Of a DNA stretch of 64,000 nt, positions 48,039-50,544 are shown piece by piece; positions within the stretch are counted from its first letter, which is position 1, and each line of letters begins with the position of its first letter. The stretch is from contig JAMPAT010000004.1 of NCBI GenBank assembly GCA_023667095.1, forward strand, positions 1 to 64,000, read 5' to 3'. The notes beneath the pieces were generated by a model. That model did not search any database and was not told where the DNA came from. It saw nothing but the letters and a program-made list of their open reading frames with translations. The stretch comes from Bacteroidales bacterium. Its GTDB lineage: Bacteria > Bacteroidota > Bacteroidia > Bacteroidales > UBA932. Made by a program: the position numbers and the translations under genes.

Positions 48039-48500
48039 CTATTCGTCATCTTCGGTTCCGTCATCGAAGCCGAAGTCGGCTGCAAAACGGTCAGCAACAT
48101 CGTCAGGGACATCTTCAAAGGAAAGTGAGTCCCATAGCATATCCATCTGCCTCCTGTCCTTTTTGGTAGGGCGTCCCGCACCGGCATCCCTTTTCAGGAA
48201 GAATGTCTCTACCGGATGTCTCAGCTTGTCCAGTTCCTCCTGAGGCGTGATGTTCTCGGCATAGTTCGGGATAAGTTTTGCCCCCTGCCTTTTCTCAATC
48301 AGTGCCAGTACCCTATATGTATAGCAGATTGCTCCTTTCCTTGCACTTATTATGTCGCCGGCCTTCACTGCCTTGGATGGCTTGATGTCATTGCCGTTGA
48401 CCCTGATTTTCCCGCCTTTGCAGGCGTCTGTGGCCTCGCTTCTTGTCTTGAATACCCTGATGGCCCACAGGTATTTGTCAATCCTTACTTCCTCTGCCAT
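48039..48500 (-). CDS. S4-domain RNA-binding protein (Hsp15-like)
   Basis: A 153-residue protein beginning with an S4 RNA-binding domain (RIDKYLWAIRVFKTRSEATDACKGGKIRVNG, about residues 6-36). It resembles Hsp15, which recycles blocked 50S subunits carrying peptidyl-tRNA. A basic stretch GAGRPTKKDRRQM and an acidic tail (DDGTEDDE) follow. It lies 9 bp behind manA and is the last gene of a leftward run gmk-nadD-manA-S4. Confidence 0.88.
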   Translation of the reverse strand: MAEEVRIDKYLWAIRVFKTRSEATDACKGGKIRVNGNDIKPSKAVKAGDIISARKGAICYTYRVLALIEKRQGAKLIPNYAENITPQEELDKLRHPVETFFLKRDAGAGRPTKKDRRQMDMLWDSLSFEDVPDDVADRFAADFGFDDGTEDDE

Positions 48501-48509
48501 GGCAAACGT

Positions 48510-49844
48510 CTAGTCTTTGTGGTGGTGATGTCCGCATCCGCAGCTGTGCCCTCCGTCTTCATGGCAATGGCATTCACCGTCATGATGATGCCCGTCATGG
48601 CAGTGGCATCCGGCGTCACCACATCCATCCTCATCATATCCGTCCTCTACACCATCATAGTCCTCACCGTCAAGATAAGGGTTGGTGTCCGGGTCGATAT
48701 ATCCGTCCTCTTCCTCGAATTTCTCGACCATTGCCTCCAGAAGCCTTGAACCCCTGTCGACAGGCACGATGAAAAAGTCTGGCATATCAGCTGGGATAAG
48801 GATTGTCTCGCCCTTTTTCAGATACCAGTTGTCCATCTTGTTTCCGCCTTTTTCGTCCTGTGACGGAACCTGGATTGAAACTTCGCCCTCGATACATATA
48901 TATATGATGAATCTTCCGAACTTTTCGGTATATATGTGCAGAGGGTCGCTGACTTTCAACTCATTTACTGTGAATTCCCTTGTCTGTACGAGCTTCCGTA
49001 CGACTTCATCTTCATGATGATGGTGCCCTTCATGCTCTCCGTCATGTCCGCAGCAGCAATGGCCATGGTTGTCTTTCCAAAGCGGACCCTTTATATATTG
49101 GCTTTCATCGAACCTGCTGTAGTTGATGAGGTCTATGGCCTCTTCGAGATGCATCTGCCTTGCCGTCTTGGGATTGAATTCGCGTCCCCAGTCATAGAGA
49201 CGGAATGTGAGGTCGGACGATTCCTGGATTTCAGCAATGAGCAGTCCTCCATCCGCGGCGTGTACAGTGCCTGGCTTTATATGGATGACATCGCCTTTTT
49301 TCGGATATATGACGTTGAGTATCTCCTCGACTGTGCCGTTATGGCATCTGTCATAAAGCTCCTGTGCACTTACCTCGCGGTTGAATCCCATGTAGACCTT
49401 CGAGTCTGGTGCTGCCTCAAGCACATACCATATCTCGCTCTTGCCCAAGGCGTCATATCTCTGTTCCGCAATCTCGTCATCCGGATGTACCTGGACAGAG
49501 AGCTTGTCCTTGATGTCCAGGAATTTTATCAGGAGAGGGAACTGCCTGCCATAATACTGGTAGATGTCCTCCCCGACAATCCTTTCCATATATGTCTCCA
49601 TGAGTTCGCCTATGGTGTTGCCTGCAAGCCATCCTTCAGCAACCACAGAATCCTCGAATCCCATGTCTGCAAGTTCCCAGCTTTCACCGATCTTGTCATT
49701 TGTTGTCAGGGAAGCCTCGTTGCCGTCATCATCCACTTCCACGAATTCCTTGTCCAGCTTGTTTATCAGGTCGCTGCCTCCCCAGACCCTCCTGGATGCT
49801 ATAGGGATGAATTTCAGCGGGTATAGTTGCTTCTTTGTTTCCAT
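48510..49844 (-). CDS. manA: Mannose-6-phosphate isomerase, type I, with His/Cys-rich insert and tail
   Basis: Zinc-dependent isomerase of mannose and fructose 6-phosphate. The zinc site is seen in LSVQVHPDDE (Q118, H120), the EIW at about 137-139 and PGTVHA (H195). The 444-residue chain is longer than the usual ~320-residue Bacteroidota form because of a Cys/His-rich insert (about 258-280, HGHCCCGHDGEHEGHHHH) and a C-terminal tail after residue 380. The tail is first acidic and then, from 408 to 444, holds 12 His and 7 Cys. These may buffer or deliver zinc; that is an inference. Confidence 0.92.
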   Translation of the reverse strand: METKKQLYPLKFIPIASRRVWGGSDLINKLDKEFVEVDDDGNEASLTTNDKIGESWELADMGFEDSVVAEGWLAGNTIGELMETYMERIVGEDIYQYYGRQFPLLIKFLDIKDKLSVQVHPDDEIAEQRYDALGKSEIWYVLEAAPDSKVYMGFNREVSAQELYDRCHNGTVEEILNVIYPKKGDVIHIKPGTVHAADGGLLIAEIQESSDLTFRLYDWGREFNPKTARQMHLEEAIDLINYSRFDESQYIKGPLWKDNHGHCCCGHDGEHEGHHHHEDEVVRKLVQTREFTVNELKVSDPLHIYTEKFGRFIIYICIEGEVSIQVPSQDEKGGNKMDNWYLKKGETILIPADMPDFFIVPVDRGSRLLEAMVEKFEEEDGYIDPDTNPYLDGEDYDGVEDGYDEDGCGDAGCHCHDGHHHDGECHCHEDGGHSCGCGHHHHKD

Positions 49845-49956: not shown

Positions 49957-50544
49957 CTACATCAAATATGCCGAGACGTCAATGCCTGCCATAATGGCAT
50001 TCCTCAGCTCTGTAGATGAGATATCCACCATAGGGGCATCCATCAGCTGTATCCTGTACCACATTCCTGTACATCTTGACTCCATACAGCCGGAACATTC
50101 CCGCATAAGGTCTTCCTTTATCTCCTGCAGGTCAAATCCTTTGCGCGGATATACTGCGACCCCGAATTCCGTAAGGATAGTCCTGTATTCTCTCCATCGG
50201 CGGATGTCAGCAAGCTGGTCCGCTCCCATGATCAGCGTGAAACTGTTGCCAGGTTCGCGCTTCCGGAGTGCCTCCAGAGTCTTGACCGTATATTGTGGGG
50301 ACGGCATCCTGAGCTCGATGTCGTCCACTTTGACTTTATCCAGTCCGCATCTGTCCACAGCCTCCACTGCTGCCCTGAACCTGGCCGGGCCTGAGTCTGC
50401 ACTTATCTCACCCTTCAGCGGATTCTTCGGAGAGACAATTAGATAGACCATGTCAAAGTCCATATGGGAAGTCAGATATTCCATTATTGCCCTGTGCCCG
50501 ATATGCAGTGGGTTGAACGATCCTGAGTAGACGGCTATTTTCAT
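49957..50544 (-). CDS. nadD: Nicotinate-nucleotide adenylyltransferase
   Basis: Adenylates nicotinate mononucleotide in NAD synthesis. The nucleotidyltransferase signature GSFNPLHIGH (with HxGH) is at the N-terminus, and the C-terminal SSTELRNAI is the ISSTxxR phosphate-binding motif. 195 residues, normal. It lies 24 bp behind gmk on the same strand. Confidence 0.95.
   Translation of the reverse strand: MKIAVYSGSFNPLHIGHRAIMEYLTSHMDFDMVYLIVSPKNPLKGEISADSGPARFRAAVEAVDRCGLDKVKVDDIELRMPSPQYTVKTLEALRKREPGNSFTLIMGADQLADIRRWREYRTILTEFGVAVYPRKGFDLQEIKEDLMRECSGCMESRCTGMWYRIQLMDAPMVDISSTELRNAIMAGIDVSAYLM

Follow-up and report, generated by a model that had tools for sequence, protein, structure and literature searches.

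A second, genus-restricted mannose-6-phosphate isomerase paralogue with His/Cys-rich segments as a candidate carrier of a metal buffer

The gene manA2 (48510..49844, minus strand) lies in a stretch of 64,000 nucleotides, the whole of which is called the window below. It is predicted to encode a class I mannose-6-phosphate isomerase (ManA) paralogue of 444 aa, in which one stretch rich in histidine and cysteine is inserted between the two domains and another forms the C-terminus. ManA is a zinc enzyme, and the original prediction had proposed that these segments could store zinc or deliver it, either to the enzyme itself or to other proteins. The question raised by this locus is what such segments may do on a sugar isomerase. 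The reading that appears to fit best is a disordered metal buffer as found on SlyD or on HspA of Helicobacter pylori, and the analysis leans, by a modest degree, towards the segments of ManA2 being flexible, exposed metal-binding appendages of the SlyD/HspA type that form part of the metal buffer of the cell.

The manA2 gene and the ManA2 clade

A single open reading frame of 444 codons occupies 48510-49844 on the minus strand, with the start and stop given in the original prediction. The predicted protein matches the catalytic domain of type I phosphomannose isomerases (PF20511, 42.3 bits, cut-off 22) and a solved ManA structure (1qwr, phmmer E 5.6e-31), which bears out its identification as a mannose-6-phosphate isomerase. 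The catalytic part is followed by the interdomain insert, the C-terminal cupin and the tail; ManA domains were the only ones detected at an E value of 0.001, and the FKBP domain that characterises SlyD was not found. Alignment columns place the zinc ligands at Gln118 and His120 (49485..49493), Glu137 (49434..49436) and His195 (49260..49262), and the active-site arginine at Arg215 (49200..49202), all on the minus strand; these roles are taken here to be those known from ManA structures. As all five residues are present, the window protein may be a working isomerase too.

The same genome (G000, 3.33 Mb) also includes an ordinary ManA of 327 residues, encoded at C48 beside a ROK-family sugar kinase gene and devoid of both insert and tail. 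This protein passes the cut-off of the NCBIfam equivalog TIGR00218 (141.1 bits, cut-off 116.2), whereas ManA2 falls just below it (107.6 bits), and ManA2 was therefore classified by its sequence as a divergent paralogue and not as a TIGR00218 equivalog. The isomerase reading thus stands, with the addition that this manA is divergent and that the genome has an ordinary one as well.

The name ManA2 is given here to the clade containing the window protein in a quick IQ-TREE phylogeny (LG+G4, SH-aLRT only), which was built from 131 distinct sequences, without the insert and tail columns, after removal of a fragment (L044) and of identical sequences from 138 rows. The clade comprises 110 of the 131 rows, the window included, with a support of 100; the ordinary ManA of this genus (12 rows) falls outside it, as do the ManA of other families. 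Relatives were drawn from the top of similarity rankings (30, 12, 30 and then the 60 next-ranked loci, some overlapping) and do not form a census, so the fractions reported below are not genus-wide frequencies. Within this sample, ManA2 was seen only in the genus of the window. The named relatives of the window protein are metagenome-assembled genomes (MAGs) of Bacteroidales, and two of the 12 are labelled Candidatus Cryptobacteroides, on which the genus name is based. Judged by sequence, the window protein is a second class I ManA paralogue restricted to this genus.

Upstream of manA2 is nadD (49957..50544, minus strand; TIGR00482, 128.2 bits, cut-off 112.45). The reading frame of manA2 closes with an in-frame stop, and 9 bases downstream starts hsp15 (48039..48500, minus strand), predicted to encode an S4-domain ribosome-associated heat shock protein (PF01479; NF007673 at 60.6 bits, below the cut-off of 148). 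Among loci with at least 400 bases downstream, hsp15 directly follows manA2 in 91 of 109 (L043, the nearest row outside the clade, being counted with the clade) and the corresponding gene in none of 19 loci that lie outside it. The neighbourhood of manA2 showed no gene linked to metals.

Composition and variation of the insert and tail

The insert (residues 258-280; 49005..49073, minus strand) contains 8 His and 3 Cys, i.e. 11 in 23 residues, and the tail (residues 408-444; 48513..48623, minus strand) contains 12 His and 7 Cys, i.e. 19 in the last 37 residues, exactly as counted in the original prediction. Given the mean His+Cys frequency of the window (3.5%), the binomial chance of such a composition is 1e-10 for the insert and 2e-18 for the tail; across 50 long open reading frames of the window, the richest other stretch of 37 residues contains 7 His+Cys versus 19 in the tail. 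An AlphaFold model made from 11 sequences, weak as a whole (mean pLDDT 53), assigned confidence values below 50 to residues 256-279 and 378-444, and disorder of insert and tail is likely on the basis of this model. Both segments have the composition, rich in His, Cys and acidic residues, of SlyD/HspA-type extensions, and the original description of them as being of a metal-binding type was right as far as composition goes. Metal binding by the ManA2 segments, the metal bound, its exchange, the abundance of the protein and the benefit to the cell are inferred.

Two technical origins of the segments were ruled out. Slippage at a DNA tandem repeat is one, as no repeat or array underlies the insert or the tail of the window copy; both synonymous codons of each residue occur in these segments (CAT and CAC for His, TGC and, once, TGT for Cys). 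The other is the local assembly error that had been allowed for in the case of the tail: both segments are present in L033, the closest relative (84% identical), which is an independent MAG record.

The survey of orthologues suggested in the original prediction revealed that 41 of the 131 aligned sequences carry such segments at the two positions seen in the window protein, a copy being called rich when it has at least 5 His+Cys in the insert or in the tail. All 41 are ManA2 proteins, whose distribution on the tree requires 14 changes or more. L033 has both segments and the next four relatives (L034-L037) have neither, thus the trait differs between close species.

The strongest rival to the metal buffer is that the interdomain loop and the C-terminus are permissive, accepting nearly any low-complexity insert, so that the His/Cys-rich ones would appear and grow longer with no function; about one chance in a few is granted to it. 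The range of lengths in ManA2 (0-85 residues for the insert, 0-64 for the tail) is as this explanation expects. Among the 38 inserts of at least 20 residues, 7 have less than 5% His+Cys, showing that the insert site accepts other sequence too, but 29 share one unusual composition, with at least 20% His+Cys compared with a core mean of 3.2%. For the 81 tails of at least 20 residues the corresponding figures are 65 below 5% and 13 at 20% or above.

Codon changes between relatives also speak against inserts without function. In 14 close pairs, insert and tail codons encoding His or Cys in either partner were identical in 132 cases and differed synonymously in 60 and non-synonymously in 53. The synonymous share of 0.53 (60/113) is near that of two-fold codons in the core (0.62) and above the values obtained when codons were shuffled within the segments (mean 0.25, maximum 0.30 in 60 runs). 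A stricter comparison limited to ungapped segments of equal length gave 11 synonymous and 17 non-synonymous changes, which is not significant, all 17 of the latter coming from one protein pair. Overall, these comparisons provide moderate evidence for selection on the segment residues.

Carriers other than intact isomerases

Segments could also be retained for the benefit of the enzyme that bears them. Some Cu,Zn superoxide dismutases have a His-rich N-terminus that has been proposed to be a self-loading metallochaperone, and the segments of ManA2 might likewise gather zinc for its own site when zinc is scarce. The complete set of ligands in the window copy is consistent with this, as is the occurrence of rich segments in 28 of the 49 ManA2 copies in which all five residues (Gln, His, Glu, His, Arg) are present. 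Yet 13 of the remaining 61 copies, each lacking at least one of these residues, are rich as well. All 13 have lost the equivalents of both Gln118 and Glu137, and from their sequences the segments can hardly serve a zinc site of their own; among the other 48 some lack just one residue and may still be able to bind zinc. The ordinary ManA of the same genome, moreover, has no segments, and similar ones occur in SlyD and in chorismate synthase, an enzyme that does not depend on zinc. From the site-less copies and from chorismate synthase, zinc delivery to the own active site appears unlikely as the general role of the segments, and a built-in metallochaperone is regarded as improbable. Consequently, that part of the original proposal is disfavoured, while a store or delivery route for other proteins is retained as its best reading. 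ManA-like genes devoid of the zinc ligands and the arginine are many in the genus, most of them within loci L105-L148, and hold a fixed place before hsp15; hsp15 follows 50 of the 61 ManA2 copies in which one or more of the five residues are missing.

Chorismate synthases of a group of relatives (L196-L214) carry a large His/Cys-rich insert in place of a short loop; family membership is illustrated by L193 (TIGR00033, 290.3 bits, cut-off 212.2). In a search of 151 genomes, this loop was rich in 19 of the best 30 loci. It was rich in none of 20 further genomes chosen among ManA2 carriers, 14 of which have a rich ManA2, nor is it rich in the genome of the window. Altogether the loop was looked at in 51 of the 151 genomes, 50 of them informative, as L222, one of the 11 non-rich loci among the best 30, is a fragment ending before the loop. 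A ManA-like match was found in 14 of the 15 genomes with a rich chorismate synthase that were searched, and none of these matches has more than 5 His+Cys in 30 residues. The same loop holds long stretches rich in Ser, Gly and Ala in L215, L223 and L225, and a 14-base repeat motif is present once in L199 and five times in L206. Both observations favour a loop that tolerates almost any insert, and the motif is a possible source of new insert sequence.

A recurrent unit, GHECHC, points the other way. Of 400 genomes from the genus searched for it as DNA, 29 have it; a phylum sample of 395 gave a single genome, where the match is a chance frame of 30 codons, so that no real GHECHC frame was present in that sample. 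At least one locus was read in each of the 29 genomes, places without a locus (two on other contigs in G250 and G235) being left out; 6 genomes had chance frames and 23 a credible reading frame. The carrier was ManA2 in 14 genomes, the tail of a SlyD-type FKBP protein in 4, chorismate synthase in 4, and the N-terminus of a P-type ATPase of the Zn/Cd family in one (L189; TIGR01512, 323.7 bits, cut-off 313.5). The presence of the unit on SlyD and on such an exporter is not what functionless filling of permissive loops would predict. The tails of 14 of 16 SlyD loci were read and were all His/Cys-rich, and the genome of the window, too, encodes a SlyD-type protein whose tail is of this sort (L055). 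The N-terminus of the ATPase (L189:1483-3018) has about 60 residues that are mostly His, Glu and Gly and include GHECHC. Another frame of the window's genome (L053, 481 codons) has a stretch rich in Trp, Tyr and His and a long C-terminal half rich in Ser, Thr and Gly, and is probably a surface protein.

The exporter is in line with detoxification, according to which the main task of the segments would be to trap metal that is foreign or in excess (Zn, Cd, Ni or Cu) and not to feed any enzyme. The extension of HspA takes part in nickel resistance, as stated in the available text of PMC4671568, which is also in its favour. No resistance gene was recognised beside manA2, the observations fit storage and detoxification alike, and this role as the main one is rated the least probable of the explanations considered, with little weight given to it.

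SlyD itself was detected in 108 of the 151 genomes of the genus and went undetected in 43, a count to which incomplete MAGs add false absences. None of the 19 genomes with a rich chorismate synthase gave a SlyD match, versus 24 of the 31 whose loop was read and proved not to be rich. That chorismate synthase strictly compensates for the loss of SlyD was rejected, since SlyD is missing as well from five genomes whose chorismate synthases are close but carry no insert (G034, G081, G164, G165 and G172); from these, SlyD loss probably came before the rich loop. The absence of SlyD together with the rich loop may also be one event in one clade. A tentative extension of the metal-buffer reading, which we hold to be rather doubtful, is that interchangeable His/Cys cassettes spread one cytosolic buffer function over unrelated housekeeping proteins: SlyD, ManA2 (dead isomerases included) and, in a species group without detectable SlyD, chorismate synthase.

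Proposed role and comparison with known systems

In the favoured metal-buffer reading, the two stretches of ManA2, with 20 His and 10 Cys, would in principle suffice for as many as about seven sites of four ligands each. Surplus Zn(II) or Ni(II) would be bound loosely by them and then released; cytosolic ManA2 would thereby join the metal buffer of the cell, with the isomerase fold as carrier. If so, ordinary metabolic enzymes can be fitted with a metal-buffering function, and a paralogue can outlast its own catalytic site by carrying such an addition. A practical warning concerns annotation: in this gut genus, some of the genes labelled mannose-6-phosphate isomerase may encode inactive proteins. 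New here are the isomerase as carrier, a second site inside the protein, the retention of segments by site-less copies and the GHECHC unit in chorismate synthase; within the terms searched and the portions of text they returned, no paper dealt with a His-rich form of either ManA or chorismate synthase, or with proteins of this kind in Cryptobacteroides.

Compared with class I mannose-6-phosphate isomerases (TIGR00218), ManA2 has the same catalytic domain, zinc ligands, arginine and cupin domain, but scores below the family cut-off and has the added segments. His-rich runs are shared with HypB and UreE, to which the original prediction had pointed; those, however, are dedicated nickel chaperones, and ManA2 is likened to them by these runs alone. 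For some HypB proteins such stretches have been suggested to store nickel, according to the available part of PMC7055735.

The same text describes the tails of SlyD as unstructured stretches with many His, Cys, Asp and Glu residues, different between species and thought to store metal; the protein of Escherichia coli binds up to 7 Ni(II), that of H. pylori 2.4 Ni(II) or 3.3 Zn(II) (PMC7055735). ManA2 has a similar His/Cys-rich tail, and so does L055 of its own genome, but ManA2 is without the FKBP domain and its insert is located between two folded parts. HspA is, in the available text of PMC4671568, a GroES protein with a His/Cys-rich C-terminal extension absent from bacteria other than Helicobacter, which is involved in nickel sequestration, a nickel chaperone role and hydrogenase maturation. 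Like HspA as described there, ManA2 is a housekeeping protein with a His/Cys-rich extension in one lineage that is absent elsewhere. The two differ in that the segments are here borne by a sugar isomerase paralogue, at two positions of which one is internal, in that they vary between close species, and in that metal binding by ManA2 is deduced from its sequence.
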